Shown here in pieces: positions 130 to 64,000 of a stretch of DNA of 64,000 bases. The DNA comes from Paenibacillus sp. FJAT-26967 (GTDB lineage Bacteria > Bacillota > Bacilli > Paenibacillales > NBRC-103111): contig NZ_LMXH01000003.1 of assembly GCF_001541095.1 (NCBI RefSeq), positions 186,001 through 250,000 of the forward strand. Direction: 5' to 3'. Every line of letters begins with the position of its first letter. The stretch's first letter is position 1. The notes beneath the pieces were generated by a model. The model was not told where the DNA came from. It saw only the letters and a list, made by a program, of their open reading frames with translations, and made no database searches. The position numbers and the translations under genes are program-made.

Positions 130-208
130 CCGGGGTTCATGGATCCGGTCAGATCAAGCAGCCGACAAAGGCGGCCCTCCATACAAGCGGGATATGGGTT
201 AACCGTAA

Positions 209-225
209 GGCTGGCTGAACCAGCC
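209..225. other. Small hairpin in the gap between two NRPS genes
   Basis: GGCTGG and CCAGCC flank a five-base CTGAA loop, within the 204-base gap between the upstream NRPS and the 2600-aa NRPS. No T-run follows directly, so an intrinsic terminator is unlikely. The rest of the gap shows only the ribosome site GGGAGTGAG at 320-328 ahead of the ATG at 334. Confidence 0.3.
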
Positions 226-333
226 GGGAAGAGGCTGCCGGTCCGGTCCGAATGTGGAAGGCACCGGCAGGCCGATTTCTTTAATACCGGACAGACAGGG
301 CATTTTTTTCTAAATAATAGGGAGTGAGCAGTC

Positions 334-8136: not shown

Positions 8137-8168
8137 ACGCGAAGTACGAAGATTAAGGGGGAAACCAT

Positions 8169-19184: not shown

Positions 19185-19380
19185 CAGAGAAGGCTGCAGG
19201 GGCAAATACCGGCAGGTAATCCCTTGCAGGAAGCGCTTCTAGATTTATGTGTGTGAGTGTGCTATCTGTTCAGGCGGCGCAGCAAAAGCTAGGGCAAGCT
19301 GTTCCGCCAGTCGCTTGATATGTATATAAACCGATCCATGCCGCATGATTTTTTATCAGGCAGGCAGAAAGGTGTAGAAC

Positions 19381-48790: not shown

Positions 48791-48880
48791 CGGACGAAGG
48801 TTGACTGGACGAAGGTTGACGAACGCAGATCGGCATTTGACCCGGTTTGAAGGTGCAGGCGGAACGTGCGGCTGCACAGC

Positions 48881-48949
48881 AAAAGGACACTTCCTACCCG
48901 GTACTTATTGGCGGCAGCCAGTAAGTGCGGTCCAGGAAATGTCCTTTTT
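48881..48949 (+). terminator. Long-stem terminator after the glycosyltransferase gene
   Basis: AAAAGGACA (48881-48889) pairs with TGTCCTTTT (48940-48948), and TTCCT/AGGAA and the CTTATTG/CAGTAAG region extend the stem inward. A T-run ends it. Just after the glycosyltransferase stop, GGACGAAGGTTGAC also occurs twice (48792-48805 and 48807-48820). Confidence 0.75.
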
Positions 48950-49032
48950 GTTGTACGCTGGTTCATCGCAGATGGGATAGAGCAAGTGATTGCGGAGCAG
49001 GCGAGTGAACTGCAAGTGTTGAAGCCATGTGA

Positions 49033-49288
49033 CTGCAGCACATAAGCCCAGCAGCACACAAGCTCAGCAGCACGTAAGCCCAGCAGCACGTAAGCCCAGC
49101 AGCACACAAGCTCAGCAGCGCACAAGTTCAGCAGCACACAAGCTCAGCAGCGCACAAGTTCAGCAGCACACAAGCTCAGCAGCGCACAAGTTCAGCAGCA
49201 CGTAAGCCCAGCAGCACACAAGCTCAGCAGCGCACAAGTTCAGCAGCACGTAAGCCCAGCAGCACACAAGCTCAGCAGTCTACAAGCC
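49033..49288. repeat. Minisatellite: sixteen contiguous 16-bp units
   Basis: Sixteen units follow each other without spacers. Three main versions occur: CAGCAGCACACAAGCT (A), CAGCAGCACGTAAGCC (B) and CAGCAGCGCACAAGTT (C). The order is B-like, A, B, B, A, C, A, C, A, C, B, A, C, B, A and a diverged last unit. The A-C pairs suggest that 32-base steps were also duplicated. The period is not a multiple of three and no gene reads through it with a ribosome site, so it appears noncoding. It fills most of the 637-base gap between 48791 and 49427. Confidence 0.95.
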
Positions 49289-49427: not shown

Positions 49428-51311
49428 TTACGGCTGCACACCGCTAACTTCCACCGTATAGGCCGGATATCGCTTGTCTCCCTGGGAGATTTCACTCTTG
49501 CCCTTATACTTACCGGTTACGAGGATGGTTTTACCAGGCTTCCAGGTATATTTACCAGTCAGCTGGATGAAGTAGCCTTCATACTCGGCAAGTGCTGTGC
49601 CGCTGCGGACCTGCGAGATCTGGACGGATAGCCGGACGGCTGTGCCCGGCTGCTGCCGGGAGAGTTCCGCTGCGTCGATCTCCTGGTAAGCTCCGGCGGA
49701 GTCCGGCGCCGGTACCTCTTCGCCGCTGTCCGAACTGCCCTGGGAACCGTCTTGACTGCCCCCGGGCTCGCTGCTGCCGTCCGCAGGTTCCTGCGGTTCT
49801 TCGGTGTGATCCGTAAGGGAGCCGGCATCCAGGCTGTACTTGCCTTTGCTGTAGAGGTACAGCACTTCCCTGCCGGCCCCTTCACCGCTCGGATTGCTGA
49901 CGCGAAGGACACCAGGGCTTGCAACCGTGTAGCCGTCCGCTTCCATATCCAGGAGGATATGGAGCTGAGAGCCCTTGGTCTGCTCATAGACGGTGTAGCG
50001 GGCTTTACGTGTACTTGACTCGCTCTCAACCTGTACAACAGGAAGCTTATTCATACCCAGCTCATCCGCGATCCGGATGTTCGTCACGGACAAGCCCTCG
50101 CCGATGTCCGCTTCTGTCCTGGCAAGCGACTGGTCAGACATTAGACGGACGAAGACCAGCTTGCCGCTTTCAGTCAGACCTACTGCCGCATACTCGGCGC
50201 CCCATAGTCCTTTCCCTCCGGCTGTGTGCGTGAATTTGGCATTCTCCACAGCTTTATTCAGGATCAATTCGGGACTCGATGTCATCCATTTGAGTTCAAG
50301 CTCGCGGATCTCTTTGCTGGTATCGCGGTATTCGCCGAGTTTCTTATACAAATCGGCCGCTTCCTGAAATTTACCGGATGAAGCAAGCTGTTCCGCACGG
50401 GCCGTCTGCTTCCGGATTGATGTCTGGATAAAGGTGTTTACTTTGGATGAAGCTCCGGCGATTTCCTTCGTGCCCTGATACAGTTTGGCATAAGTTATGA
50501 ACGTTTCGATGTCTCCTGCATTCAGCAGCTTCGTTAGCGCGCTTTGAATGTAGACCTCCAGCTTGGGAAGTACCCAAGCCGCTTCGAGGCTGCGCTCCGT
50601 ATAGAATTGGCGCAGACGCACGCCTTCCTGGATTACCTCATTGAATGGTTTTTCCTTGAACCAATATTCCAGCCGGGCCGTATCGTATTTCTGGAACAAG
50701 GCATTCAATTCTTTTTTCTTCGTCTTCTCGTCTTTGTACGCGGAGGCCGGGAGCTGAAGCAGGTAGGTGATCGCTTCATCGTTATCGAACGATTGGGCGC
50801 TCATTGCTTCTTGCAGGTTTTTCACCAGCACTTGTCTGGCCTGTGCCAGTGCGGCTGTAAATTGTTCGTCCAATTTGTAAGCGGCGCTCAGCTCGGCAAA
50901 TTTTTGCTTGGCGTTCTCGTCCTGAGTACTGATTTCGGATTTCTTGGCCTGATAGGTGGCGTAGGCCTGAATCAGGCGGCCGAAATCCTGACTTCCTCCC
51001 GCGGTCTGGGACAAGTCCGAAGACAGGGAGTTCATCAGCCGCTTCAGCTCTGTGACCGGACGGAGGGCGGCAAGCGCGGCATCTATCTCCGTTTCCTTGT
51101 AGTCGAAGGAACTTATTCCCTGCGCCCGGGAGTACCAGTCTTCGGCTTCTATATCCCGTCCGGCTGCCTGCTCGGCAGCTGCTTTGCCATAGAAGCTGAC
51201 CTTTTGCCAGACGGCATAGGATTTGTAGCCGGCGAGAAAAATCATGGCCGCTAGGACGAAGGCGGCCGCATTTCTGTAACGTATGGCGCGGCGATACGTA
51301 GAACCTAACAT
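49428..51311 (-). CDS. Membrane-anchored extracytoplasmic protein of unknown function, 627 aa
   Basis: I do not recognise this family. A basic N-terminus (YRRAIRYRN) precedes one membrane helix (about 12-31), so the remainder should be outside. Residues about 35-340 are mostly helical and look like TPR or coiled-coil repeats, for example SGKFQEAADLYKKLGEYRDT. A beta-rich region follows (about 345-490; AKFTHTAGGKGLWGAEYAAV). A Ser/Glu/Gly/Pro-rich linker (about 500-545) leads to a C-terminal OB-fold-like segment (about 555-627; VRLSVQISQVRSG, ITL-type strands, KTILVTGKYKGKSE). It is the last gene of a minus-strand operon, 15 bases after the zinc-ribbon gene. Its divergence from the vWA/tubulin operon suggests a joint role in the envelope. 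Confidence 0.8.
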   Translation of the reverse strand: MLGSTYRRAIRYRNAAAFVLAAMIFLAGYKSYAVWQKVSFYGKAAAEQAAGRDIEAEDWYSRAQGISSFDYKETEIDAALAALRPVTELKRLMNSLSSDLSQTAGGSQDFGRLIQAYATYQAKKSEISTQDENAKQKFAELSAAYKLDEQFTAALAQARQVLVKNLQEAMSAQSFDNDEAITYLLQLPASAYKDEKTKKKELNALFQKYDTARLEYWFKEKPFNEVIQEGVRLRQFYTERSLEAAWVLPKLEVYIQSALTKLLNAGDIETFITYAKLYQGTKEIAGASSKVNTFIQTSIRKQTARAEQLASSGKFQEAADLYKKLGEYRDTSKEIRELELKWMTSSPELILNKAVENAKFTHTAGGKGLWGAEYAAVGLTESGKLVFVRLMSDQSLARTEADIGEGLSVTNIRIADELGMNKLPVVQVESESSTRKARYTVYEQTKGSQLHILLDMEADGYTVASPGVLRVSNPSGEGAGREVLYLYSKGKYSLDAGSLTDHTEEPQEPADGSSEPGGSQDGSQGSSDSGEEVPAPDSAGAYQEIDAAELSRQQPGTAVRLSVQISQVRSGTALAEYEGYFIQLTGKYTWKPGKTILVTGKYKGKSEISQGDKRYPAYTVEVSGVQP

Positions 51312-51326
51312 AGCCTATCGTCCTTT

Positions 51327-52265
51327 CTATATGAAGCCCTGAAATTCAGGGTCAAACTCATATTTACGGCGGGCGGTCTCCTGCGTTTTCTGGTGCAGTT
51401 CAGCAGCGCGGTCAGGATGCTCGCCGAGAAGGCGGCACAGCCTCAAAAGGCGTTCCCGGGGCAGATCTTCCACGAAATCATAGAGGAGTGAGGAATATTC
51501 GAAGACATACTCCTTTACACGCAGAGCGGCGGCAGCCACAAGTGCAAGGGTGGCGCGCCCTTCAATCATCCCGCCGATCTGGATGCGGTGCTTCATGACG
51601 TAATCCAGTGTATCTCGCTTAACCAGCTGCGGGCTGACTTTGCAAATTTCGTTCAAATAGTAAACAAAACTCGGCTCGAATTCGTCAGGAATAAGGGAGC
51701 TGAGTTCCAGCTCCATATCGCTTCGCAGAATGAACCGGTTCAGGCAGAATGCTTTCAGCACCCGGATGTGATTGCCCGTGATCAGGAAGCCGATTTCGCG
51801 GAGCTTCTCATAAGCCTCCTTGAAATTCTCCGATTCAATATCACTCGCGGCATCCTGCACATCGAGCAGCAGACCTTCCCGGATGCCGAAGCTCTCGCGC
51901 TGGAGAAGCTTCCGGAGCGTTACAAGCTGGAGCGTCTGTGAATAACGCCTGCGCAGCAGCACGTACAAGACGATCAGGAGGACGCCGCCGGCAATCGCAG
52001 CTGCCATTTGTTCGAAGGAGCGTGCCAGGAAGTAGGCGGCCAGCGACCCGGCGGCCATGAGCAGCAAATCCCGCTGGAGATTGCGCCTGAGAATGCCCCG
52101 CACAATATCGTGCACGGACAAGAACTTGCGCTGCGAGCCGCACTCGAGGCAGCTTTCATGCCAGAGAACGGAATACGTTCCGCAACGCGAGCACTGTTTT
52201 AATCGTTCATAGGTATGGACGGTCTGAGTTGTGGGCCGAAGCAGTACCGGCATTTTATCGGTCAT
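51327..52265 (-). CDS. Zinc-ribbon membrane protein of unknown function, 312 aa
   Basis: The N-terminal CSRCGTYSVLWHESCLECGS supplies two Cys-x2-Cys pairs (about 25-43), a zinc ribbon. Two adjacent hydrophobic segments follow (about 67-107), forming a membrane hairpin that leaves both ends in the cytosol. The remaining 200 residues are soluble and helical with charged surfaces (SENFKEAYEKLREIGFLITG, LPRERLLRLCRLLGEHPDRA) and resemble a helical repeat adaptor. I cannot assign a function. It overlaps the preceding 48-aa gene by ATGA and lies 15 bases before the 627-aa gene, so the three form one operon. A zinc ribbon also occurs in the GTPase of the divergent operon. Confidence 0.85.
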   Translation of the reverse strand: MTDKMPVLLRPTTQTVHTYERLKQCSRCGTYSVLWHESCLECGSQRKFLSVHDIVRGILRRNLQRDLLLMAAGSLAAYFLARSFEQMAAAIAGGVLLIVLYVLLRRRYSQTLQLVTLRKLLQRESFGIREGLLLDVQDAASDIESENFKEAYEKLREIGFLITGNHIRVLKAFCLNRFILRSDMELELSSLIPDEFEPSFVYYLNEICKVSPQLVKRDTLDYVMKHRIQIGGMIEGRATLALVAAAALRVKEYVFEYSSLLYDFVEDLPRERLLRLCRLLGEHPDRAAELHQKTQETARRKYEFDPEFQGFI

Positions 52266-52408
52266 GGCTTCTCACCGTTGTTAAGGCGGTTCATAAATTC
52301 GAGGTCAATGTCACTGGAAGACAGAGCTTTCCGCTTCGCTGCGGCCCAGGAAATCCACTGGGAGGCGACAAAGATGACCAGAAGGGCAAGTGGGATAAAG
52401 GTCAGCAT
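52262..52408 (-). CDS. Small membrane peptide, 48 aa, first gene of the minus-strand operon
   Basis: Reading the minus strand from ATG 52408 to TGA 52262 gives 48 residues: MLTFIPLALLVIFVASQWIS, one membrane helix, then a charged tail with AAAKRKALSSSDIDLEFMNRL cut here to its key features (basic KRK, acidic DIDLEF). AGGAGA lies six bases before the ATG. The stop overlaps the start of the zinc-ribbon gene (ATGA), the usual sign of translational coupling. These two signals make it a real gene despite its size. The helix probably has its N-terminus outside by the positive-inside rule, which puts the charged tail in the cytosol. Its function is unknown; assembly or regulation of the envelope complex is a guess. 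Confidence 0.78.
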   Translation of the reverse strand: MLTFIPLALLVIFVASQWISWAAAKRKALSSSDIDLEFMNRLNNGEKP

Positions 52409-52619
52409 AAGAGTCTCCTAAACAATATTGTGCGTTACCCGGAATGGCGCCTGGGGTCCGGTCCCCATATAAAGTGGAATTAACTGACTGAAAAAGTTAG
52501 AATGTGAAGTAGATATCCAAATATTCTACCACCTTTTACATTTTACTACAAAGAAGCCGGACGGCGTCCATACACCGGGCTCCGCCGTGCAAACTATAAA
52601 GCTTTGGAGGAAGAAAACC
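52409..52619. promoter_or_regulatory. Divergent promoter region of the vWA/tubulin-like locus
   Basis: This 211-base gap must hold the promoters of both operons. I see GGGG/CCCC arms around TCCGGT (52453-52466) and an AT-rich stretch (52470-52550), but no -35/-10 pair close to consensus in either direction. The plus-strand ribosome site GGAGG is at 52606-52610. Regulation may rely on an alternative sigma factor or an activator. Confidence 0.4.
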
Positions 52620-54383
52620 GTGATGAACGTTAGAAAAATGACCCTTGGGGCCCTGGCCCTGCTTCTCGTGCTGCTGACGATTCCTGTCGCTGCTATAGCC
52701 GCACCGGCAGCTACCGATACGAAGATCGATGCGGTGCTCACGACAGACGTCAGTACTTCTATGAACGAAAGCGACGTCAATAAAGTTAGTTATGAAGCGA
52801 TGAAAATGTTTGTTGATATGGCATCGGTGCAGGGAGATAAGATCGGTGTCGTGGCTTATACCGACCAGATTCTCAGGGAGAAGGCTCTGCTGAAGATAAG
52901 CAGCGCAGAGGACAAACAGAACCTCAAAACCTTCATTGACCAGCTGACCCGGGGGCCTTATACGGATATCGCGGTCGGCCTGGATGAAGCTGTAAAGGTA
53001 CTGGAGTCAGGCTCCGAGAAGGATCATGTCCCGATGATCGTCCTTCTGACAGACGGCAATAACTCACTGAATCCGTCCAAGACCCAAGATCAGTCGGATA
53101 AGGTGCTTAGTGCCGCGATCCAGAAGGCCAAAGACAAGGGTTACCCGGTGTACACCATCGGGCTCAATGCCGACGGCAAGCTCAACAAGGATAAGCTGCA
53201 GAAGATTTCCGATGAAACGGGCGGCAAGCTGTTTGTGACCAGTACAGCGGATAAACTGCCCCAGATTCTGAGCGAGATCTACGCCAGTCATTTGAAGCTT
53301 AGAGTTGTTCCGCTTAACGGATTTACGGCAAACGGACAGTTTCAGGATGTGAAAGTGAATATCCCCAACGGCAGTGTGCTTGAAGCGAATATTTCGATCA
53401 TGTCGTCCCAGCCTGTAGAGGTGAAGCTTATTGATCCGGCAAGCAAGGAGCAGAACATTCCATCGGATAAAATCGTCTATACCTCGTCGAGCGCGTATTC
53501 GCTCATTAAAATTCTGAATCCGGCTCAGGGCGACTGGACGCTCAAAGTCAAAGGCGTTCCGCAGGAAAAGATTGATATTAATCTGGTTTATAATTATGAT
53601 TTGCAGGTTGTCATGGACCCTCTCGCGTCCAAAACATATAAGGCCGGTGATGGAGTCTCCATTAAAGCACATCTGGAATCCGGCGGTCAGAAGGCAGCGG
53701 ACGCAGAGCTGTATAAGGATGCCAAAGCGGCGCTGGTTGTGACCGACACCGATACGAATAAGACGTCGGAGGTTCCTCTTAAGATTTCGGATAAGGGGAT
53801 CGAAGGGGCCTGGAAGGTTGCGGACGCTCATTCTTACGAACTGAAGGTTAAGGTGGAGAACACAAACTTCTCGCGTGAATCTAGGCCGGTGAAGCTGAAT
53901 GCCAAAGGCGGAAGTACGGCGGCTCCGGCTCCGGGCGGCGACCAGGGCAAAGAAGGGACGAATTGGGTCAAAACCGGTTCGTGGATAGCCGGATTGCTTG
54001 TTCTGGTGATTGGAGCGCTGTTCGCACTTGCCTACTGGAAGAAAGCGAACAAAGGATTTTTCGGGCAAGTGGTCCTGGAAATCAAGGACGAGGAGACGGG
54101 AGAGCGCACGAATCCTCAGTACAAGAAGCTGAATGCGTTTAAGGGGAAGGTGCAGCTGCACCAGCTGCTGTCGCTGGCTCCAGAGTTTGCCGAGACCAAA
54201 GGCATTGTATTCAAACCGGGTCCCGGTGATACCCTTGTCATGTATAATCAGTCGGGCTGCACGATAGAGAAGGGCGGCCGGGTCTTTGATGCTTCGCAGG
54301 GCAAGGAAGTCAAGAAGAACGACCGGATCCGGATTACACTTCAGAACGTGAACAAGTCCATATCATTGGAGTATTTAAAATAA
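52620..54383 (+). CDS. Secreted, membrane-anchored von Willebrand factor A protein
   Basis: The start is GTG 52620 (GGAGG nine bases upstream); ATG 52623 is equally in frame. A signal peptide (NVRKMTLGALALLLVLLTIP, cut near AIAAPA) precedes a vWA domain (about 35-225). Its metal site is intact: DVSTS (Asp43), the Thr in GPYTDIAVG and the Asp in VLLTDGNNS. Beta-rich Ig-like segments follow (about 230-440), then a linker and a membrane helix (about 460-482). A C-terminal cytosolic beta domain of about 100 residues (FFGQVVLEIKDEETGE, SGCTIEKGGRVF, NDRIRITLQN) resembles an FHA-like sandwich. It therefore links an outside ligand-binding domain to the cytosol, where the tubulin-like protein encoded 35 bases downstream should be. 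Confidence 0.9.
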   Translation: MMNVRKMTLGALALLLVLLTIPVAAIAAPAATDTKIDAVLTTDVSTSMNESDVNKVSYEAMKMFVDMASVQGDKIGVVAYTDQILREKALLKISSAEDKQNLKTFIDQLTRGPYTDIAVGLDEAVKVLESGSEKDHVPMIVLLTDGNNSLNPSKTQDQSDKVLSAAIQKAKDKGYPVYTIGLNADGKLNKDKLQKISDETGGKLFVTSTADKLPQILSEIYASHLKLRVVPLNGFTANGQFQDVKVNIPNGSVLEANISIMSSQPVEVKLIDPASKEQNIPSDKIVYTSSSAYSLIKILNPAQGDWTLKVKGVPQEKIDINLVYNYDLQVVMDPLASKTYKAGDGVSIKAHLESGGQKAADAELYKDAKAALVVTDTDTNKTSEVPLKISDKGIEGAWKVADAHSYELKVKVENTNFSRESRPVKLNAKGGSTAAPAPGGDQGKEGTNWVKTGSWIAGLLVLVIGALFALAYWKKANKGFFGQVVLEIKDEETGERTNPQYKKLNAFKGKVQLHQLLSLAPEFAETKGIVFKPGPGDTLVMYNQSGCTIEKGGRVFDASQGKEVKKNDRIRITLQNVNKSISLEYLK

Positions 54384-54418
54384 AATTAAAAATATAAGAA
54401 CCATGGGGGGCTTATTCC

Positions 54419-57400
54419 ATGAAAGCGACAGTCAGGGAACATATTCAACAGCTTGACGTTTCACTCGGAGGCGGCATCATCAGTGACAAAATCCGTGTCG
54501 ATACCATCGATAACCCGATGCTCGTCATCGGGCTCGGGGGTACCGGAATCGACGCGCTTCTGCGTCTGAAATATCAGATTAACCGCAGATTCAAACTGCC
54601 GGAAGACCCTTTTACCAAGAAAAAGAAGGAAAAGCCGAATAATGTAGAATTTCTTGCCCTCGAAACCAATGAACATGACCGCAATAAGAAATACAAGGGG
54701 ATCGGGCTTGACCCGTTGACTGAATTCGTCCTGTTGTCCAATCCGGAAATCGGCAGCGTTCTTCAGAACCGCAGTATTCTGGAGCCTTACATCAAGGAAT
54801 GGCTTTCCCCGGAGCTGACGATTACAGACGGTATCAACGGTGCATCGGGTGTCCGCCAAGCGGGCCGTCTGCTGCTGTTCACCAAGATCGTCCAAGTTGT
54901 ACAAACGATTGAACGCAAAATCAAAACGCTCTCGGTCGGCACGAACAAGAAGCTGATGGTGTTCATACTGACCGGATTGTCCGGCGGTACGGGAAGCGGC
55001 TGCTTCCTCGATATTTCGTACATCGTACGAGGTATTATGGAACGTGACTACGGCTCTGCCGGCGTCGATAAAGTCAGCCTGCTCGGCTATCTGTTCACCC
55101 CGGACGTGAACTTGGCGAACAAGAGTCTGACGGAGCATTCCCGGGAGTATATCAAGAAGAACGGATATGCCGCGCTGAAGGAACTCGACTACTGGATGAA
55201 CGTAGACGAGCGTACGGAGCGCTTCAAGCAGCAGTATGCGAATATCCTGACGGTCAATTCGCCTATGCCTCCCTATAATCTGGCCCATCTGATATCGGCC
55301 ACGAATTTGGAAGGCAAACTGCTAGACAACGCTTATGATTATTGCATGAACGTAACGGCAGAGAACATTACGAACTTCATGGCAAGCGAAGATAAGCAGT
55401 CAGGCGAAGAATTCGCAATCCATGACTATATCAGCAACATCCGTACGAATATCAACCAGATGCCTAAGGCGTACGCAGCCAACTATCAGTACAACATTCT
55501 GGGCGCTTCGTCTGCGGTGCTGCCCATTGAAGAAATGACGACTTATCTGGCCTATAAGGTTTTCCAGCGGATGGATAAAATGTTCGAAGCCGGTCCTTCC
55601 CAGGAAGAAGTCGAGAAGCTGGCGCACAAGCTGGCTATTGATCCCGACTCTCTCCACCGGGAATTCGACAAGCGCGTGCCGGAGCCGCTGCCGGGCTATC
55701 AGAACAGCGAACGGCTGAGCTACGCGAATGTAGTCAAGCAGCAGGTTGTGAACATCGATACCGAACTGGAGCAGAGTTTCCTCTCCCGGGCGCGCGAAGA
55801 GTACATCAAATCACGCAAGCAGCTGCCGGGTCAGGTGAAAGAAGCATTCTCCGAGCAAGTGACCAAGATTTTCCGGAATCCGGAGCAGGGGCCGTTCTAT
55901 GTGTCCCGTATTATTTTGCAGGACAAAGGATTCTGCTTGCTGAAGCTGATCTCTTCTTATATTGAAGCGCTCAAGGAAAGCATTTACCGTGTGCCGCGTG
56001 ATATTCAGTCCGCCGAAGAAAATTCAGAGCAGAAAATGACCGAAGCGCGCAGTGCGTTCATTTCCAAAGACCGCAAAAAAGATGCCTATATCGAAGCCAA
56101 AATTCAGGAATATTTGCTGCACGCCGACCGTGAGCGGATGGAGCAGATGGTGGAATTCTACGAGGATTTATATAACCTGATCAATCAGGAGAATTCGCGC
56201 ATTTATACGGTGTTTACCGAGCTGCTTGGCGAGCTTAACAAGATTTTCGAGAAGAACGGCGACATTCTGACCCGCGGTGACGAAGAGATCGACCACAAAG
56301 GGAACCGGACTTATTACTGGAACGTAGTCAGTGTACCGGACATCGCCAAGCTGATCGGACAAGTGACGGAGGAAAGAAATGCCGATGAGCTGATCCGCGA
56401 TTTCACGAATGAGCTGCTTGCCAAATCGAATCAGTGGATTAAAGAGCAGGAAGTGGATGTCATCGGTTCGGTTTCCGAGTTCCTGACCGATCATTTCGGA
56501 GAGCTGATTACGAAGTCGATGGAAGAATACCTCGTTATCAAATACGGACATGAAGACTCCATTGAGAAGCTAGTGGAGGGGCGTATTGCGAATCGCCTGT
56601 ATGAAGAGGCGAAGCCGGTGTTCCATCTGACGAACAGTTCCGGTCACTTCAACTTTCCTTCTTGGGGCTTCGTGTCCGTACCTGTAGGGGCGCCGAATAT
56701 TTTCAAGGGAATCCGGAACTTCCAGGATAATGCGATTGCGAACTCCCGTTTTACGATCAAAGAAAGCCAAGTGAAGAACCGGATTTTCTGGCTGAACACA
56801 CAGAACGGGATTCCGCTTTTCCTGTACACGCCTCTGCGGGTCTACGAGGAAAGCTACGAAAGAACCATTCTGGAGCCGGAAGGCATCGGTCGTCACCTTG
56901 TGCAGACAGACCGGGTAAACTGGACGTACCTGCCTTCGCCGATTCCTGAGAAATCATGGGGCGAGACGTATGATAACGGCCGCGTCAAATCGTACAACGC
57001 GCAAGTCCGCGGATTGTTCGACCGTGCGGCGTCGTACGGAGCAGTCCGTCTGAAGGGCGAAGACAGCGGAACGATTAACCGCTACGAAAGCATATGGACG
57101 AAGCCGTTCGATGTGGAGAAGCATATTGCGTCTTACAATTTGCAGCTGAATACGCAGCGTCCTAACTTCGGAGAACTGCAGCGCTGCGTGAACGAGCTCA
57201 GAACGATCGTTCAGAATGGCCTCGAGATCGAGCGCACGAAGGACATATTCGGCAGTGTGAACGAGGAGATGGCGAAGGAGAATCTGATCCGCTCCCCGGA
57301 GCTGCTGAAGCAGGTAAGAGACGAGGTACGCAAATACGACAGTATTGTGCGTAAAATCGAGGAATTGGAACTGGCGCTGAGCTCATACAAAGATGAAGAG

Positions 57401-57808
57401 AAGTTCATTGCCCAGTTCATCGAAGCGATGTATACGTCCACGATTGCCAAGAAAGGCGCCCTGTACGTGTACGACCATGACGGGGATGAAGATCCGTGGG
57501 AAGCGTTTGTGAATCTGATGCAGACCAATAAATTCGTCGAGTATGAGATTTACAGCAAAATGCGCGAGCTGGACGCGAAGAAGCAAGCCATGCTGCAGCG
57601 CAAAGCTTCGAAACGGAGCCAGCAGATGATTGCTTCCGAAGATATTGAAGCGCTTGTGGAAACACTCCGCTCGATGAGTGTCTCTTACCAGGAGACAAAA
57701 TCGGCGCTTGACTATGACCGTTCGGAGTATGAGAACGGGGAAGAACTGTACCAGTTCTATAAGCAGGTAGCGGGCAAAGTGAACGATATGGTGAAAAGCC
57801 TCCGGTAA
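54419..57808 (+). CDS. Large tubulin/FtsZ-like protein, 1129 aa
   Basis: The N-terminal 300 residues look like a tubulin-type GTPase fold. PMLVIGLGGTGIDALLRLK (33-51) fits the first nucleotide-binding loop. TGLSGGTGSGCFLDI (from 185) contains SGGTGSG (188-194), an exact match to the tubulin/FtsZ signature. I believe the family is the poorly characterised Tubulin_2 group, from memory. The remaining 800 residues are largely helical and charged, including likely coiled coils (about 510-600 and 960-1129), with a predicted beta-rich part near 740-830. No membrane segment is present, so the protein should be cytosolic. It is about three times the length of FtsZ and no FtsA, MinC or TubR-like partner is nearby. 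It sits between a vWA anchor and a 788-aa unknown. Polymer formation is inference. Confidence 0.85.
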   Translation: MKATVREHIQQLDVSLGGGIISDKIRVDTIDNPMLVIGLGGTGIDALLRLKYQINRRFKLPEDPFTKKKKEKPNNVEFLALETNEHDRNKKYKGIGLDPLTEFVLLSNPEIGSVLQNRSILEPYIKEWLSPELTITDGINGASGVRQAGRLLLFTKIVQVVQTIERKIKTLSVGTNKKLMVFILTGLSGGTGSGCFLDISYIVRGIMERDYGSAGVDKVSLLGYLFTPDVNLANKSLTEHSREYIKKNGYAALKELDYWMNVDERTERFKQQYANILTVNSPMPPYNLAHLISATNLEGKLLDNAYDYCMNVTAENITNFMASEDKQSGEEFAIHDYISNIRTNINQMPKAYAANYQYNILGASSAVLPIEEMTTYLAYKVFQRMDKMFEAGPSQEEVEKLAHKLAIDPDSLHREFDKRVPEPLPGYQNSERLSYANVVKQQVVNIDTELEQSFLSRAREEYIKSRKQLPGQVKEAFSEQVTKIFRNPEQGPFYVSRIILQDKGFCLLKLISSYIEALKESIYRVPRDIQSAEENSEQKMTEARSAFISKDRKKDAYIEAKIQEYLLHADRERMEQMVEFYEDLYNLINQENSRIYTVFTELLGELNKIFEKNGDILTRGDEEIDHKGNRTYYWNVVSVPDIAKLIGQVTEERNADELIRDFTNELLAKSNQWIKEQEVDVIGSVSEFLTDHFGELITKSMEEYLVIKYGHEDSIEKLVEGRIANRLYEEAKPVFHLTNSSGHFNFPSWGFVSVPVGAPNIFKGIRNFQDNAIANSRFTIKESQVKNRIFWLNTQNGIPLFLYTPLRVYEESYERTILEPEGIGRHLVQTDRVNWTYLPSPIPEKSWGETYDNGRVKSYNAQVRGLFDRAASYGAVRLKGEDSGTINRYESIWTKPFDVEKHIASYNLQLNTQRPNFGELQRCVNELRTIVQNGLEIERTKDIFGSVNEEMAKENLIRSPELLKQVRDEVRKYDSIVRKIEELELALSSYKDEEKFIAQFIEAMYTSTIAKKGALYVYDHDGDEDPWEAFVNLMQTNKFVEYEIYSKMRELDAKKQAMLQRKASKRSQQMIASEDIEALVETLRSMSVSYQETKSALDYDRSEYENGEELYQFYKQVAGKVNDMVKSLR

Positions 57809-57826
57809 GGCGGCATAAGAGAAAAA

Positions 57827-57895
57827 GATACGGCAGAGGGTGTAGACAGCAGCGGGACGGCTCAGATATATTTGACCGTCTCGCTCTGCCGTATC
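57827..57895. promoter_or_regulatory. Long two-part hairpin inside the vWA/tubulin operon
   Basis: GATACGGCAGAG (57827-57838) pairs perfectly with CTCTGCCGTATC (57884-57895). Inside it, CGGGACGG (57853-57860) pairs with CCGTCTCG (57876-57883) with one G-U. The structure fills the 113-base gap after the tubulin-like gene and ends seven bases before the AAAGGAG ribosome site of the next gene. There is no T-run. It could be an attenuator, a processing site or a 3' stabilizer that sets the ratio of the two proteins. Confidence 0.75.
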
Positions 57896-57921
57896 GTCCT
57901 TAGAAAGGAGTATGAAGAATC

Positions 57922-60288
57922 ATGCGGGAGAAGTTGGTGGCGTTCGCAAACGAATATGCCGCGGCAACAGACAGCACGGGACTTATCGGAGATGAACAGC
58001 GCAGCATTCACCATCCGCTCGTTTTTCTGTTCCTGGGCGATACGTCGGCGGAAGCCCTTCATGAAATGGTGGAAATCAACCGCCGTAAGTGGGATAACAG
58101 CGCGGGTGTGGTTTACCTTCATATAGGATCGAAGCCGGTAGAGAAAGATTTGGGAGACAACGTATACGTCTGGACCCTTCCTGAAGTGCCGGAGAATGCT
58201 AGAACGGTAAGACCGGATACTCAGCGCTGTTTCCATAAGGACAAAGAGAAACTGCTGGAGCTTAATGTGCTGCTGCGCAGGATGAACAGCCGGATTTCGG
58301 AATACGGCCGGGTGTACTCGAATTTACAGAGGTTGAACGTAGCCGTCGTTACACGGCTGGATGACCCGGGCAGCGTACTGGTGCCGGAGTTAACCGCTTT
58401 GATGGAAACGATCTTCGGCGAGCATTTCCGTTCGGTGATCGTGGATCTGTACGGCCTGCTGGAGGAGAAGCAGGTTGGCGAAGAGTTTGCGCTGAGGGCC
58501 TCCCTCAGCTTCAGCTTCCTGCGGGAGCTCGATGTTCTCCAGAGCCGGGATTACCACTATTCCGGCCCGCTCCAGGTGACGGGCGAAGGCATTACCTTAC
58601 CGGCTGAGCACGGACCCGCTCCTTTGTTTGATACCGTTTATCTGCTGAGCGACAAAGATGAACGGGGGATTTTCACCGAAAGCGGGATCCGCAGCAGCTG
58701 CGAAACGATCGCTTCACTGAACCTGCTCAAGTACCGGAATGTCCGGGACGAGAAGGATTCCTTGAAGCAGGGCGCCTATAACCATCAGCATTTCAAGCAG
58801 AATGTAGCGCCGCCGGGCGAAGAAGGCGGCGGCTACGCATCTGCCGGATATGCGAGGGTCAGCCGGCCGAATCAGGCGATCGCTCTGACCGTGCTGTATC
58901 ACCTGTACCGCCATGTGCGCGGGCGGATGGAGGAACAGTGCGCGGGCGGGGCGCGCGCACTGCCGGACTTGCTGCGGATGGAGCCGCAACTGTGGGACCG
59001 CGCGATAGACGCGGTACTGCCGGAGCGGGAGAAGGCAGCCGATGAGATGTACGGCTTGATGCATGAGCCGGTTTCATACGGCGAGCTGAAGTCGATGACG
59101 CTGAAGGAGGCTGAGTCGGCTCTCTACGGCAGCGCAGCGGGCTTGTTCTTTGACATGAACGTCAAGGACAAAGCGGTGCAAGCGTTCGCCGATCAGAATT
59201 TCGCGAAGAGGCTGGAGAGGCTTCTGCTGGAGCGCGTAGTAGCCGAGCCGGCGTACGGGTATTGCGCCGTCAGAACGTGGCTGTCTGACGAGAGCAGTTC
59301 CGGCCTGCTTGGCGAGCTGCGCCAGCATTTGAGAGATGCGGCAGCGCGTGCCGACGCTGTGCGGGGCGAGCTGGAAAGCTTTTACGGGGAAAGAGTGGAC
59401 CGTCAGCCCTTCTCCAAAGGCTCTCTCTTCGGATTTAAGTCGGATAAAGCTTCGGTGAAGAACTTTATCCGTTATTTACTCGATGAAGTGTACGGGATGA
59501 AGCGGGATCTGCTTTTCCTGGAATTGAAGCAGAAGCTCATGTCGATGTATCTGGATGTTCTGGAAGATATGCGCGAACGCGCCAAGCTGGCCGTCGACAA
59601 GATGGACCGTCTGGAGAAGCTGCTGCTGGATACGAGCCGCAGCGGAATCTCGGCTGCCCGTGATTATCTGGGACGTAACATCAACGAATATTATGAGCAC
59701 GTCGTGAAGCAGATTGCGGGAGAGATGGAAGGGCGCCGGGAGGCGCGGTTTTATTACGACGACCGCTTCCTCGGCAATGTGTCTGTCCAGATCGATGAAG
59801 ATACCGCGCAATGGCTGGAGAAGCTGATGGGAATGGCGCGCAGGGATGTGCTCGTCCACCCGCTGTTCCATCAATCGTTCGAGGATGAACTGCTGCAGCG
59901 GGCTAATGTCGCCGCAAGCTATGACAACCAGGATGTATTGTCGAAGGAAGACCTCTTCCGCGACCTTTACGTTACACTGGAGAATGAAGCGGCGATCCGC
60001 ACGGATGTGTACCATTCTACCCACCGGAACCGTCACGAAGAGAAATACTTTTTCGGAGATGCGGGGAGTGAATTTATCCAGTACGCGTTCGCTGTGGACG
60101 GGGGGAGCCGGACTTACAAACTCGGCTGTGTTCATGAGAACAAGCCCGGAGGGATCGAGAAGCTGCGTTTGATGGGCGGCTTCCGGCTGGATGATCTGAT
60201 GGTTTACCGCAACGGCCGGCGTTATTATGAGACGTATCTGGAGAACGGTTACTTGTTTCACGGAATGAGCATGCCGGAGAATACCTAA
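57922..60288 (+). CDS. Unknown 788-aa cytosolic protein paired with the tubulin-like protein
   Basis: I do not recognise this protein. The N-terminal part (about 1-270) alternates hydrophobic strands and helices (HPLVFLFLGDTSAEALHEMV, AGVVYLHIGSKP, FDTVYLLSDKDERG) and could be a Rossmann-like or divergent tubulin-like domain; no P-loop or tubulin signature is visible. Residues about 320-460 are helical. A strongly charged helical region (about 500-640; KQKLMSMYLDVLEDMRERAK) is likely coiled coil. The C-terminal part mixes alpha and beta. There is no membrane segment or signal peptide. Its position right after the tubulin-like gene, with similar size class and helical tail, suggests a physical partner. 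The ATG is about 11 bases after AAAGGAG, a slightly long spacing. Confidence 0.8.
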   Translation: MREKLVAFANEYAAATDSTGLIGDEQRSIHHPLVFLFLGDTSAEALHEMVEINRRKWDNSAGVVYLHIGSKPVEKDLGDNVYVWTLPEVPENARTVRPDTQRCFHKDKEKLLELNVLLRRMNSRISEYGRVYSNLQRLNVAVVTRLDDPGSVLVPELTALMETIFGEHFRSVIVDLYGLLEEKQVGEEFALRASLSFSFLRELDVLQSRDYHYSGPLQVTGEGITLPAEHGPAPLFDTVYLLSDKDERGIFTESGIRSSCETIASLNLLKYRNVRDEKDSLKQGAYNHQHFKQNVAPPGEEGGGYASAGYARVSRPNQAIALTVLYHLYRHVRGRMEEQCAGGARALPDLLRMEPQLWDRAIDAVLPEREKAADEMYGLMHEPVSYGELKSMTLKEAESALYGSAAGLFFDMNVKDKAVQAFADQNFAKRLERLLLERVVAEPAYGYCAVRTWLSDESSSGLLGELRQHLRDAAARADAVRGELESFYGERVDRQPFSKGSLFGFKSDKASVKNFIRYLLDEVYGMKRDLLFLELKQKLMSMYLDVLEDMRERAKLAVDKMDRLEKLLLDTSRSGISAARDYLGRNINEYYEHVVKQIAGEMEGRREARFYYDDRFLGNVSVQIDEDTAQWLEKLMGMARRDVLVHPLFHQSFEDELLQRANVAASYDNQDVLSKEDLFRDLYVTLENEAAIRTDVYHSTHRNRHEEKYFFGDAGSEFIQYAFAVDGGSRTYKLGCVHENKPGGIEKLRLMGGFRLDDLMVYRNGRRYYETYLENGYLFHGMSMPENT

Positions 60289-60340
60289 ACGGTAAGTAAT
60301 TTTATAACTATAGAAGAATTGAGTAAAAGGGGGGAGAACG

Positions 60341-61630
60341 GTGAAACAGAGAAAATGGAGTCCGCTGCTGACGCTGTTCAGTGTAATTGGAGGGTTCGTC
60401 GGTTTTTTTGTCGGCGAGTATATGCTGAACCGGTGGGGTGGCAGCCTGCACGAAATCGTGCTGATGGGCTTGTACTTCGGCCAATTCGCCTTGTTCGTCG
60501 GCTTGTTCTGCCTGGTGGCCGAGATGATTTCGCCCGAGCTGAACGGAAGAAACTGGCGGCTGCGCTATGCCGGTGACGGCTGGAAATTTCTTGTGCCCGC
60601 TACACTGGTCATGCTGTTCGTGGCCGGGGCTTTGTTCCAGCTCTTATACGGGCTGCAGTTTGTCGGCAAGCAGGCTCCGAGAGATTATGTGCTTGTTCTC
60701 GATAAGTCTGAAAGCATGGTTCAGAACGACCCCGGCAAGCAGAGCCTGGAGGCTGCCAAATCACTCATCGGGAGGATGAACGGCGGCAACCGGGTGGCAT
60801 TGTTTACTTTTAATGAGGATACTCAGCTGGTGTCTCCGCTTACCAGCCTCAAGTCATCCGGGGCAAGAGAAGATCTTCAATCCCGGCTGGACAAGTTCGG
60901 AGAGCCGGTCGGTATGACGGATATCGGCAAAGCTTTGACTACCGTCATGGATGAGCTCAAGAAAGAAGGCGCCGCGAGCAGCAAAGCTGCCGTCATTCTG
61001 ATCTCCGACGGCTACAGCGATGTGAACACGGCCCAGGTGCTGGCTCCTTACCTGGAAGCGGGCATTCCGGTGCATACGGTCGGAATCGACGACTCTCAGG
61101 TGGAAGGCATCGAGCTGCTCCAGCGTATTGCGGGCGAGACGAATGCGAGCTTCCACGATGTGAAAAGCGCCGACCAGATTACAGGCGCGTTCGAGCAGAT
61201 TTACGCCAGCGAGCAGCAGTGGAATCTGGTCAGCGAACGGCTGGGTCCGGCAGCGTCAGACAGCTTCCACGGCATCCTCAGGGTTGCGCTGATCCTGCTG
61301 ATCGGTACTCTTATCGGTTTGTCGCTCGGAATTATTTTCGACAACCGCCATTTGGCGCTCAGCTTTGCCATCGGCGGCACGATCGCCGGTCTTATTGCCG
61401 GTCTCGTGCTGGAGCTGAGCTTGCCGGGAACCAGCATTCCGGCATTCTACCGTGCGGTTGCGGCGGTAACGCTGGCCTTCGTGCTGTCTCTGGCTACGCT
61501 GATTATCCCCGTCAACAATAACGACTCGAATCCGGGACTGCGTGCCGGTTCACGCCAGAAGGCAAGACCCGGGGCAAGCAGCCGCCTGGGTGACCGCAGC
61601 AGCCAATTGCCGGGTAAGCAATTCCGTTAA
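60341..61630 (+). CDS. Multi-pass membrane protein with an extracytoplasmic vWA domain
   Basis: The GTG start lies just after AAAAGGGGGGAG. Three membrane helices come first (about 8-30, 38-62, 84-108), with basic residues in the N-terminus and in the second-to-third loop. The vWA domain (about 115-290) should therefore lie outside. Its metal site is intact: DKSES (Asp121), the Thr in VGMTDIGKAL and the Asp in ILISDGYSD. A second group of hydrophobic helices follows (about 305-400; LILLIGTLIGLSLGIIF, GGTIAGLIAGLVLELSL, VAAVTLAFVLSLATLII). The basic, disordered tail (GSRQKARPGASSRLGDRS) is probably cytosolic. It is the second vWA protein of the operon; the two may bind each other or a wall ligand. 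Confidence 0.9.
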   Translation: MKQRKWSPLLTLFSVIGGFVGFFVGEYMLNRWGGSLHEIVLMGLYFGQFALFVGLFCLVAEMISPELNGRNWRLRYAGDGWKFLVPATLVMLFVAGALFQLLYGLQFVGKQAPRDYVLVLDKSESMVQNDPGKQSLEAAKSLIGRMNGGNRVALFTFNEDTQLVSPLTSLKSSGAREDLQSRLDKFGEPVGMTDIGKALTTVMDELKKEGAASSKAAVILISDGYSDVNTAQVLAPYLEAGIPVHTVGIDDSQVEGIELLQRIAGETNASFHDVKSADQITGAFEQIYASEQQWNLVSERLGPAASDSFHGILRVALILLIGTLIGLSLGIIFDNRHLALSFAIGGTIAGLIAGLVLELSLPGTSIPAFYRAVAAVTLAFVLSLATLIIPVNNNDSNPGLRAGSRQKARPGASSRLGDRSSQLPGKQFR

Positions 61631-61697
61631 TGGATTGTTCTAACGAAAACGTATGAAATAAACATATGAGGCATCCCATCAAGTGAGGCGATAGATC

Positions 61698-62336
61698 ATG
61701 AATTGGAAAGAAATGGGCGAATATTCCCGGATTGAGAAGCTTGCCGCCCAGCCCGTCCGGGACGGAGAATGCGTACTGACCTGGCAGTGGCCCAAAGACA
61801 TTCATGCCGTGTATGTATACAGCTTCGAGGCAGGAGCAGAGAAGCCTCCGGAGCTTCTCGCTCCGCAGCAGATGAAGCTGTTTACCCGGGAAGAATACAA
61901 GGCCAAGTCCGGTTACCGCGAGCGTATCGATTACATCGGAAGCCGGGGCTACCGGATTTTCCCTTGTATGATTAAGGAGGGTGCCGTCACCGCACTGCTG
62001 CAGAAGGACGAACACAATGTTGTGCGGGTAAACGGAGGCAAAGCAGGAATCCGGTATTCCGTTCATTACGGGAGAAAGCTGTTCGGTAAATTCAAGACAG
62101 CGCGGATTCAGTTGTTCTGTGAAATTCCGGTACCCCAGGAAGCGCTCTGTTATGTGAAAAAAGAAGGCGCTCCCCCGTCCGGCAGACAAGATGGCACGGC
62201 CTATCCGTTCCGGCGGGACTTTGACGCAGGCAGCCAGTCGCTGCCCGAGATCGAGATCGGCAGGAACGATTATCTCCGGCTTTTTCTGACTGATCCTTCC
62301 CGTTACGGGGAGATTTTCGAATTAATTCAAGAATAG
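61698..62336 (+). CDS. Hypothetical 212-aa soluble protein of the tubulin/GTPase operon
   Basis: I cannot place this protein in a family. It has no signal peptide or membrane segment. The sequence is rich in predicted strands (ECVLTWQWPKDIHAVYVYSF, ARIQLFCEIPVP, GYRIFPCMIKEG) with few helices, suggesting one or two Ig/Fn3-like beta sandwiches. The C-terminus EIEIGRNDYLRLFL looks like a final strand pair. GTGAGGCGAT precedes the ATG at suitable distance. It ends 11 bases before the GTPase gene and is 67 bases after the vWA membrane protein gene, so it belongs to the operon. An adaptor for the GTPase is a reasonable guess. Confidence 0.75.
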   Translation: MNWKEMGEYSRIEKLAAQPVRDGECVLTWQWPKDIHAVYVYSFEAGAEKPPELLAPQQMKLFTREEYKAKSGYRERIDYIGSRGYRIFPCMIKEGAVTALLQKDEHNVVRVNGGKAGIRYSVHYGRKLFGKFKTARIQLFCEIPVPQEALCYVKKEGAPPSGRQDGTAYPFRRDFDAGSQSLPEIEIGRNDYLRLFLTDPSRYGEIFELIQE

Positions 62337-62347
62337 GAGGGGCGCAT

Positions 62348-63613
62348 ATGCTAGGGTATCTGAAAAGTCTGTTCGAGAAAAAGCCGCCCGAAAAAGAGCG
62401 GCCTCCATTTTATAGCATCGTATGCCCTTACTGCTTCAGTAAGTTTGAGCCTGAGGAGGTTGTTTTCCGGGCGGCTCACGTTAAAGATACGGATGATGAT
62501 TTCATGCTGCAGGAAGATGCGAAGCTGAACAATTGGCGGCGTAAATTCAACCTGTCCGAGAACGATATGGAGGCGGTTATTAGTCCTTCTTCCATCCCGG
62601 ATGAACACAAGTCATACATCCAGAATGTGCTGGTTGCCGTGACCGACCGATACGGGGAGACGACAAGGCGCCGCCTGTGCCCGAATTGTCACAATGAGCT
62701 GCCGATTTCGGCCGGCAAGGTGCCAAGCAATATTATTTCGATCGTCGGAGCGTCCCAGGTCGGAAAGTCGGTATACATGACATCGCTGATCCATACGCTC
62801 CAGCATACGACAGCTTCTAACTTTAATGCCGCCTGTATGCCGCTCAGTGCCGAGATCAGCCGCAAATTCCGGCAGTATTATCACGAACCGATTTTCGAGC
62901 GGGGCAGTATGCTCCAGTCGACGAATCCGAATGAGCAGCAGGAGCCGTTTATTTTTCAGTTCGTGTTTAAAGATGAACGGGAAGCGCCGCTGACGATTGT
63001 ATTCTTCGATGTGGCCGGTGAAGGAATGGTCCAGCGGGAATACCTCGATATTTATGCGTCGCACATTAAAAATTCATCGGGAGTCTTGTTCCTGGTCGAT
63101 CCGCTGCAGATCCGCAGCATCCGGGACAAAATTCAGATTAATGTAGGCGGAGAACAGGGAGAATTCGCTAACCGCTACGACGAGCCCCGTGAAGTCGTGA
63201 TTTCCCTGTTTGAGAATTTCATCGCCCATCAGCAGAACAGCAAGACCGATATCCCGACGGCCATCGTCTTGACCAAGAGTGATATGCTTCAATATTTGAA
63301 AGAAGAAGACAGCGAATATATTCAGCCTAACAGCAACGTGTTCCGCAACGTCGTTCACCGGGGATTCCTGGATAACACGGAATTCGAGAACATTGACGGC
63401 GAGATCGGCCGCTTTATCGACAAGGTGGACCGGCCGTTCAAGGACGCTGTGGATGTTTATTTCTCCAACACGGCTTATTTCGCCGTCTCGGCGCTGGGCA
63501 CGAATCCTGTGAACAAGCAGGTCAGCGGGGTCATCAATCCGACTCGTGTCGACGAGCCGTTCATTTGGCTGCTGCATAAGCTGGGTTACATAGCGAGGAG
63601 AGATGCGACGTGA
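62348..63613 (+). CDS. Zinc-ribbon TRAFAC-type GTPase (DO-GTPase2-like)
   Basis: This 421-residue cytosolic protein starts with a split zinc ribbon: CPYC (26-29) and CPNC (111-114). A P-loop GTPase domain follows, with G1 GASQVGKS (134-141), the G3-type FFDVAGEG (Asp221, Gly224) and the G4-type TKSD (309-312). The end has the helical HKLGYIARRD-type tail. The layout matches what I remember of the double-GTPase type 2 family described computationally from bacterial conflict-system neighbourhoods; that name is from memory. AGGAGGGG precedes the ATG. Its stop overlaps the GTG start of the next gene, whose product looks like the GTPase-associated protein GAP1. Whether it acts on membranes or on the tubulin-like polymer is unknown. 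Confidence 0.85.
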   Translation: MLGYLKSLFEKKPPEKERPPFYSIVCPYCFSKFEPEEVVFRAAHVKDTDDDFMLQEDAKLNNWRRKFNLSENDMEAVISPSSIPDEHKSYIQNVLVAVTDRYGETTRRRLCPNCHNELPISAGKVPSNIISIVGASQVGKSVYMTSLIHTLQHTTASNFNAACMPLSAEISRKFRQYYHEPIFERGSMLQSTNPNEQQEPFIFQFVFKDEREAPLTIVFFDVAGEGMVQREYLDIYASHIKNSSGVLFLVDPLQIRSIRDKIQINVGGEQGEFANRYDEPREVVISLFENFIAHQQNSKTDIPTAIVLTKSDMLQYLKEEDSEYIQPNSNVFRNVVHRGFLDNTEFENIDGEIGRFIDKVDRPFKDAVDVYFSNTAYFAVSALGTNPVNKQVSGVINPTRVDEPFIWLLHKLGYIARRDAT

Positions 63614-64000
63614 CCGGGAGAAAATTACAGCAGCAGCTGTTTACACGCGACCGGGAAGGCATCTTCCGGACGAGCGAAGGGTTTGATACGGTAGCCAAGT
63701 CCCCGGGACTGGACGGTTCTTTTATCAAATCGGCGCTGCATCCTTATTGTGTTTATAAACCGCCGCAGGAGCTGCTGGAGCGGGGAGAAGAGAACAGCAG
63801 CCTGTACCCGGAATCGCTGGTGTCCTATCAGGCGGAGAACGGGGATCTGGTCATCGGGCGCAGCGTTTATGTGGCGACGGACTTTACCGGCCAGCGGAGC
63901 GCATCGTTTACGCACCAGTTCGTAGTCCCGAAGGAGAGCAAAGAGGCGTTCATCCGGGAGCCGCGGCGTATTTTCGGTATCCAGGCATTCCGGAGCCGTT
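63610..64000 (+). CDS. GTPase-associated protein, GAP1-N2-like N-terminus (partial)
   Basis: The GTG at 63610 overlaps the GTPase stop by four bases (GTGA), with GAGGAG nine bases upstream. The frame stays open to the window edge, giving 130 residues. It begins QQQLFTRDREGIFRTSEGFDTVAKSPGLD, given here by its key parts LFTRDREGIFRTSEGFDTVA and KSPGLD, followed by LHPYCVYKPP. This matches my recollection of the GAP1 N-terminal domain type 2, which occurs next to double-GTPase genes. Later strands include DLVIGRSVYVATDFTG. The translational overlap with the GTPase gene suggests a stable pair. The rest lies beyond the window. Confidence 0.8.
   Translation, partial: MTGRKLQQQLFTRDREGIFRTSEGFDTVAKSPGLDGSFIKSALHPYCVYKPPQELLERGEENSSLYPESLVSYQAENGDLVIGRSVYVATDFTGQRSASFTHQFVVPKESKEAFIREPRRIFGIQAFRSR

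Follow-up and report, generated by a model that had tools for sequence, protein, structure and literature searches.

The window analysed here is a stretch of 64,000 nucleotides from Paenibacillus sp. FJAT-26967 (contig NZ_LMXH01000003.1, C12:186001-250000 of a 5.46 Mb genome), whose closest named relative, as judged by the tubulin-like protein D, is Paenibacillus lutrae (99% identity). At 49428-66705 lies a block of nine large genes (A to I) and one micro-gene (M) in two divergent arms, the last gene overrunning the window end. Judged from its domains, this Paenibacillus block belongs to a published, computationally predicted class, the GTPase-centric systems of the GAP1-N2/tubulin type. The arms diverge from about 52.4-52.6 kb, the minus arm consisting of M, B and A and the plus arm of C to I, and the open reading frames are long and closely packed (Table 1). 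An initial annotation, made from the sequence alone, had described at least nine genes and a micro-gene in two tight divergent operons; the reading frames confirm this layout, which is kept in most loci of relatives. Extension downstream completed I to 66705, and the next long gene lies on the opposite strand (L003:4146-5012), so that the plus arm seems to end with I. Scans for promoters and terminators did no better than shuffled sequences (10 versus 10.7 and 17 versus 15.9, respectively), and none of the NCBIfam matches of the locus proteins reached its curated cut-off.

Table 1. Genes of the block, in window positions (aa, amino acids; TM, transmembrane)
Gene	Position	Strand	Description
A	49428-51311	-	627 aa, anchored, predicted extracytoplasmic
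B	51327-52265	-	312 aa, zinc-ribbon-like motif, 1-2 TM helices, C-terminal domain
M	52262-52408	-	48-aa single-TM microprotein
C	52620-54383	+	Signal peptide, external vWA, Ig-like beta region, TM helix, predicted cytoplasmic tail; frame open from 52587
D	54419-57808	+	1129-aa tubulin-like protein (Tubulin_2/FtsZl1), GGTGSG
E	57922-60288	+	788-aa modelled tubulin-fold protein without GTP signature, long helical/coiled-coil stretch
F	60341-61630	+	Multi-TM protein, vWA predicted outside
G	61698-62336	+	212-aa soluble adaptor, perhaps FNIII-type component
H	62348-63613	+	DO-GTPase, two N-terminal CPxC zinc-ribbon motifs
I	63610-64000, on to window-equivalent 66705 (L003:611-3706)	+	GAP1-N2/GAP1-M protein, 1031 aa

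The TRAFAC GTPase and GAP1-like partner proposed initially are H and I. H matches DO-GTPase2 (PF19993, 36.6 bits, 5.2e-9) and DO-GTPase1 (PF19975, 29.7 bits), both with a cut-off of 27, and carries two CPxC motifs, a P-loop GxxxVGKS, FDVAGE and TKSD; the P-loop pattern and LTKSD are present in 43/43 sequences. I, whose start overlaps the stop of H, matches GAP1-N2 (PF20013, 147.4 bits, 3.5e-43) and GAP1-M (PF20014, 97.7 bits, 5e-28), with cut-offs of 24. A TM helix at 798-816 is followed by predicted external Ig-like/cadherin-like and glucodextranase-B-type repeats and finally by about 45 G/A/S/N-rich residues, which may or may not be the published 'highly polar C-terminal extension'.

The tubulin signature noticed earlier in D is genuine, since the protein matches Tubulin_2 (PF13809) at 1.2e-76 and GGTGSG is present in 41/41 D sequences; the length of D is almost invariant across relatives. 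E had been described as a large coiled-coil partner. A long helical/coiled-coil stretch (about 345-700) is indeed there, but the protein itself appears to be tubulin-fold. Tubulin_2 is matched by 27/54 E relatives (best 1.5e-6; the E of the window reaches just 0.15), and an AlphaFold 2 (AF2) model from a 54-row alignment (mean predicted local distance difference test, pLDDT, 87.9) gave six Foldseek matches at E<=0.001, the best at 1.2e-4. The best 50 Foldseek rows are all FtsZ, CetZ, TubZ, tubulin or tubulin-length chains of microtubule or gamma-tubulin-ring entries, and VIA-align superimposed the model on CetZ (3zid_A) with Z 23.1 and a root-mean-square deviation (rmsd) of 3.6 over 305 residues within the model range 30-776. 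The GTP signature is present in 0/54 E sequences. According to its model, E is therefore a tubulin-fold protein without the GTP motif, as is expected of a partner or cap. We infer that the helical stretch lies inside the modelled tubulin fold rather than after it, because the aligned range reaches the C terminus although it comprises just 305-334 aligned residues. Whole profiles of D and E match over D 206-559 (probability 93%, E 3.3e-7). Cut profiles gave a probability of 9% for the N-terminal pieces alone and 0.3% for the C-terminal pieces, so that the reading of E as a split tubulin depends entirely on its model. Profiles of D, E and G found no convincing relative by sequence in the PDB.

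Both vWA domains of the initial annotation were recovered by Pfam (C 3.6e-16, F 1.1e-18), their extracytoplasmic side being a prediction. C probably starts at 52620/52623 and not at 52587. Its vWA domain has a DxSxSM motif of the metal-ion-dependent adhesion site (MIDAS) type in 41/41 sequences, its Ig-like beta region resembles MG2 and hemicentin Ig-like domains only weakly, with scores below cut-off, and its TM helix (464-482) is followed by a conserved, predicted cytoplasmic tail of about 100 aa; YtkA was unmatched in 11 C proteins. F has six hydropathy segments with the vWA domain (117-284) between the third and fourth, which puts it on the predicted outer side. The G protein of the window matches no Pfam family, and fn3 was found in 0/54 G members; the G profile does match a PIN-domain protein of a sister GAP1-N2 locus, over residues 599-787. 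Taken together, the predicted topology places C, F, A and the tail of I outside, with vWA, Ig-like and wall- or ligand-binding-type domains, and H, the GAP1 part of I, G, D and E inside, as no signal or TM helix is predicted on the relevant part. This agrees with the earlier proposal of ligand-binding parts outside and nucleotide-driven parts inside.

In the minus arm, A consists of an N-terminal TM helix, an alpha-solenoid (about 45-355), a beta domain (360-494), a disordered linker and an OB-fold-like domain (557-626), as seen in an AF2 model with a pLDDT of 89 and a predicted template modelling score of 0.61. The C-terminal end of this model aligns with 3kf6_B, a Stn1-Ten1 entry, over 78 residues (VIA-align, Z 11.6, rmsd 1.5); the VIA-align rows for the rest of A were middling and all Foldseek rows had E >0.001. 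The outer end differs by lineage, being OB-like in the window and SH3b in two Brevibacillus proteins (2.7e-9 and 5.9e-11); SH3_3 is matched in 11/55 A members. A is present in 40/46 family loci, 17/20 loci of other families and 61/72 named-genome loci, contig edges accounting for some of the misses, and is less obligate than B and M. Loci in which it was not found include L163-L166, L191 and L195, and it is absent from those of P. terrae, P. maysiensis, P. ottowii and P. brasilensis, which we take to be the P. polymyxa group. Six Brevibacillus loci (L156, L175, L183, L184, L197, L200) have in common a small gene, sortase-like by eye (cluster c3), at most three genes beyond A.

B and M are predicted to be small membrane proteins encoded by an overlapping gene pair, M having an AGGAG ribosome site and a stop that overlaps the start of B (ATGA). 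B had been described as a zinc-ribbon membrane hairpin. The zinc-ribbon-like N-terminal motif CxxC...CLxC, among the eight commonest forms, was found, but within the membrane region (about 68-104) only one of the two hairpin helices (86-104) passes the hydropathy threshold; no Pfam family matched B at cut-off. M shows a basic stretch after its TM helix and a C-terminal ID..(F/L)..LN pattern. A direct reading-frame screen with strict limits found an M-like frame in 98/135 loci, own locus included. With a profile built from 29 microproteins, M adjoins B at E<=0.01 in 120/134 B-bearing loci and weakly in three more. Nine of the other 11 have an M match in the same locus beyond the distance limit and the remaining two are Cytobacillus loci (L167, L174), in the first of which the direct screen did see an M-like frame. 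Outside the family training set M was found in 80/92 loci, some of which repeat an assembly that is listed under a different locus id, and the best unrelated match among 63,450 reading frames had an E of 0.12. The ratio of nonsynonymous to synonymous substitution rates for M was 0.11-0.62 in 12 chosen pairs, which are not independent. In one relative (G017:C91:166810-176102, right part in L049) about 8 kb, instead of a few hundred bases, separates B and M from C, so that something sits between the two arms there.

That the divergent arm belongs to the system is concluded from its distribution. Among 99 genomes of the family, one per species, GAP1-N2 was found in 47, B in 46 and M in 46 (E<=2.8e-4), and the B and M genomes are an identical set, namely the 47 GAP1-N2 genomes minus G081, which holds a different GAP1-N2 theme. 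D was seen in 45 of them (44 fetched loci plus our own); in the remaining one (G061) the contig starts within the operon. As the 46 positive genomes supplied 19 of the 32 rows in the M alignment, some positives match by construction, which does not apply to the 53 negatives. Weak M matches occurred in three of these negatives (G006, G012, G013; E 0.0066-0.0093), and six positive genomes have a second weak match elsewhere (E 0.0014-0.0059). All nine large genes were found in 40/46 family neighbourhoods, 17/20 from other families of the order or class and 60/72 named-genome loci; these sets overlap, since many named contigs belong to assemblies counted already, and contig ends explain some of the misses. 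The genes thus co-occur well beyond this genome, with near-constant content and order across loci of Paenibacillus, Brevibacillus, Aneurinibacillus, Cytobacillus, Bacillus, Neobacillus and Cohnella. Class-wide, GAP1-N2 was found in 42/299 genomes; of the 26 same-order genomes listed, 25 have it. Some operon copies (L079/L199, L059/L178, L040) contain many or few frame breaks, owing either to decay or to sequencing error. A chance neighbourhood of unrelated operons is refuted by these co-occurrence counts and disagrees with the common tree history described below; its probability is negligible.

The history of the block was analysed with FastTree in 30 chosen genomes, where a split was called strong at an SH-like (Shimodaira-Hasegawa-like, not bootstrap) support of >=0.95. 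The rpoB and polC trees have 19/27 splits in common and no strong conflict, and any two of the operon genes C to I have 12-20 in common and one strong conflict at most. The concatenated operon, in contrast, agrees with the species tree in only 8/27 splits and conflicts with 13 of the 22 strong ones. A (25 genomes) and B (28 genomes) show no strong contradiction with the operon tree, whereas they contradict 7/16 and 4/10 strong species-tree splits, respectively. These trees cover A to I, and M is linked by its co-occurrence. Purely vertical inheritance of the operon was rejected, as rpoB and polC are mutually consistent and both contradict it. Some vertical signal exists too, since seven splits were common in the rpoB comparison and at most three (0.2 on average) after label shuffling; the groups f2, f23, g1 and g12 stay whole.

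Because A to I have a single history that contradicts the rpoB/polC tree, the block appears to be passed between genera in one piece and to come to lie at different places in the chromosome, although hidden duplication with loss could mimic such transfer. The flanks (downstream of 20 genomes, upstream of the named loci) are common mainly to close relatives and differ between lineages. In five g7 genomes without GAP1-N2 no empty site was found, one flank gene being absent from all five and the other having only distant homologues. D (mean distance 0.274) has diverged about as much as polC (0.286) and 2.8 times as much as rpoB; for the other seven genes compared, the factor relative to rpoB is 3.0-6.7. 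Joint transfer argues that the gene set works as one machine.

The mean pairwise identity is 0.79 for D (42 sequences), 0.78 for H, 0.65 for C, 0.55 for G, 0.53 for F, 0.51 for E, 0.48 for B, 0.43 for I and 0.41 for A. By region it is highest for the tubulin part of D (0.90) and the GTPase part of H (0.83), followed by the vWA domain (0.76) and tail (0.71) of C, and lower for the vWA domain of F (0.49), A (0.40-0.42), the external part of I (0.39) and the GAP1-C region (0.37).

We give an even chance to the interpretation that this close relative of P. lutrae encodes a GTPase-centric system in which a membrane-anchored, GTP-switched tubulin assembly is triggered from outside. The external domains would sense an envelope event such as a breach, a bound ligand or the attachment or injection of a phage, and the zinc-ribbon DO-GTPase H with its GAP1 partner might serve as a threshold switch. 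This switch would release or nucleate the GTP-dependent assembly of the tubulin D with its nucleotide-free relative E at sites on the membrane provided by B, M and the tail of C, and the polymer may then contain or brace the affected site. As to its use, in stopping invaders or in repairing and shaping the envelope, we slightly favour invader containment. In favour of the interpretation are the family matches, the nearly constant gene set and order, the intact motifs of D, H and C, the high conservation of the tubulin part of D and the GTPase part of H, the modelled tubulin fold of E without its GTP motif, the restriction of B and M to the genomes with the tubulin-type operon, the joint movement of the genes between genera, and the prediction of Kaur et al. 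2020 that the class comprises conflict systems. A sister GAP1-N2 locus (L074 in G081) has a PIN domain fused to a G-like adaptor, which suggests an immunity-like use of the same switch.

Several observations weigh against this interpretation. The nine large proteins match PADLOC models weakly (best E 0.0096). Among their neighbours, three of ten genes match PADLOC models, the best being an ABC ATPase to mad3 (3.6e-23); Pfam, applied to two of the three, identifies one as an ordinary response regulator and the other as the ATPase of an ABC transporter, and the third is a putative kinase. The ten neighbours tested in this genome (elsewhere neighbours were clustered only) therefore include no clear defence gene. 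The near-constant set contains no variable effector gene, a search of 72,556 plasmid and 50,697 phage records yielded no copy of D, and genus g21 is without GAP1-N2 in 25/25 genomes. There is also no plain contrast of slow evolution inside and fast evolution outside, given an identity of 0.76 for the vWA domain of C versus 0.37 for the GAP1-C region. Finally, the open-licence literature yielded no experiment on the system, including on protection (the microprotein was not searched for by name), nor is the system put to the test in the text available from PMC11237479, PMC10067837, PMC13092281, PMC9871819 and PMC6952346.

Envelope maintenance or membrane remodelling, the view of Makarova and Koonin, would have the polymer of D and E bend, brace or vesiculate the membrane under external vWA sensors and assign no immune role to the system. 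The near-fixed gene content without a variable effector fits such a function, as do the neighbours in the window (response regulator, ABC ATPase and glycosyltransferase genes) and the presence of DO-GTPases in some phage-shock-protein operons, where the part of PMC11237479 concerned terms them a predicted membrane-stress protein. For a core envelope function, however, block transfer between genera and absence from a whole sampled genus would be unusual, and the PIN domain of the sister locus speaks against it as well, so that we consider this explanation unlikely, if worth keeping in mind. A rather improbable one is an outside-in sensor for adhesion or kin recognition, whose vWA and Ig-like/SH3b ends would bind the wall or neighbouring cells and position an inner tubulin track, for instance in colony or swarm behaviour. 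It would account for the wall-binding-type end of A that varies between SH3b and OB, and 601 of the 904 GAP1-N2 organisms in Table 1 of Kaur et al. 2020 (PMC7159879) are multicellular; the absence from several loci of A, its most wall-like component, counts against it.

Downstream of the block, genes for a BtrH-like protein, a nucleotidyltransferase, an EryCIII-like glycosyltransferase and a phosphopantetheinyl transferase stand in a row (L003:12091-15903), possibly a natural-product cluster. On the other side, just outside the block, a minus-strand frame at window 48697-49137 contains short AAELVCCWAYVL-like repeated units.

Computational studies of 2010 and 2020 proposed the class to which the block belongs. 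In the text sections of Kaur et al. 2020 (PMC7159879), GAP1-N2 'GTPase-centric' systems are predicted to be conflict systems, with a TRAFAC DO-GTPase, often with zinc ribbons, a GAP1 N2 + M protein typically just downstream, a FNIII-repeat component, variable effectors, among which tubulins are counted, and a mobile neighbourhood. Their Firmicutes theme comprises two tubulin genes with a coiled coil, two vWA genes (one multi-TM with an external vWA), a DO-GTPase with two zinc ribbons and GAP1-N2, as well as a vWA fused to YtkA and a GAP1 with a highly polar C-terminal extension. The initial annotation had rightly pointed to a kinship with a set of DO-GTPase, GAP1, vWA and tubulin-like genes. 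Because the Firmicutes gene set is defined there, calling the machine 'undescribed' was too strong; its composition is published, and a tested function was not found in the open-licence literature. Like that theme, our block has two tubulin-type genes, two vWA genes, a zinc-ribbon DO-GTPase, a GAP1-N2/M protein, membrane proximity and a mobile neighbourhood. Unlike it, E lacks the GTP motif and its helical part, to go by the model, seems to lie inside the fold and not after it, variable effector genes are absent, and YtkA and FNIII are not confirmed by Pfam. A divergent arm such as A, B and M goes unmentioned in the text sections drawn on here.

The theme overlaps the membrane-remodelling operons of FtsZl1, vWA and GTPase genes described by Makarova and Koonin 2010 (PMC2875224). 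The FtsZl1 family combines an N-terminal tubulin/FtsZ GTPase motif and a helical extension with neighbouring vWA and GTPase genes, and D fits it as a Tubulin_2 (FtsZl1) protein that has its GTPase part at the N terminus and genes for vWA proteins and a diverged GTPase close by; the OmpA-type and protein kinase genes mentioned there are absent from our set. In the account given there, the T6-H7 elements and the C-terminal tubulin half of FtsZl1 are unidentifiable, whereas the model of E appears to show this missing half at its C terminus. The sister locus L074 of the same family is similar in its DO-GTPase2, GAP1-N2/M and G-like adaptor, but it has two DO-GTPases and a PIN domain on the adaptor. 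Its stretch gave no match to C, D, E, F or B, and its genome no M at E<=0.01. Upstream in this locus (35-19376) are genes for PDDEXK and UvrD proteins that look AddAB-like by eye; a group II intron reverse transcriptase apparently interrupts the helicase. The MoxR-vWA ternary systems (VMAP etc.), as outlined in the text of PMC7159879, follow a comparable logic of vWA and nucleoside-triphosphatase switch; unlike them, A to I include no match to a MoxR AAA+ ATPase at E<=1.

Compared with these systems, new here are the apparent joint travel between genera, the 48-aa membrane microprotein, the zinc-ribbon partner B and the modelled nucleotide-free tubulin-fold partner E. They might make up a transmembrane machine with vWA outside and tubulin inside, in which MIDAS domains act through a GTPase/GAP1 switch and an obligate microprotein/zinc-ribbon adaptor on a two-subunit tubulin polymer, one subunit being GTP-less, and which is exchanged whole between genera; we put this fuller picture forward tentatively, as possible and not as probable. 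It comes with an explicit parts list, consisting of nine large genes, a microprotein that gene finders may skip and a predicted pair of GTP-binding and GTP-less tubulins, and with culturable hosts (Paenibacillus, Brevibacillus) in which sensing, switching and polymerisation are directly testable.

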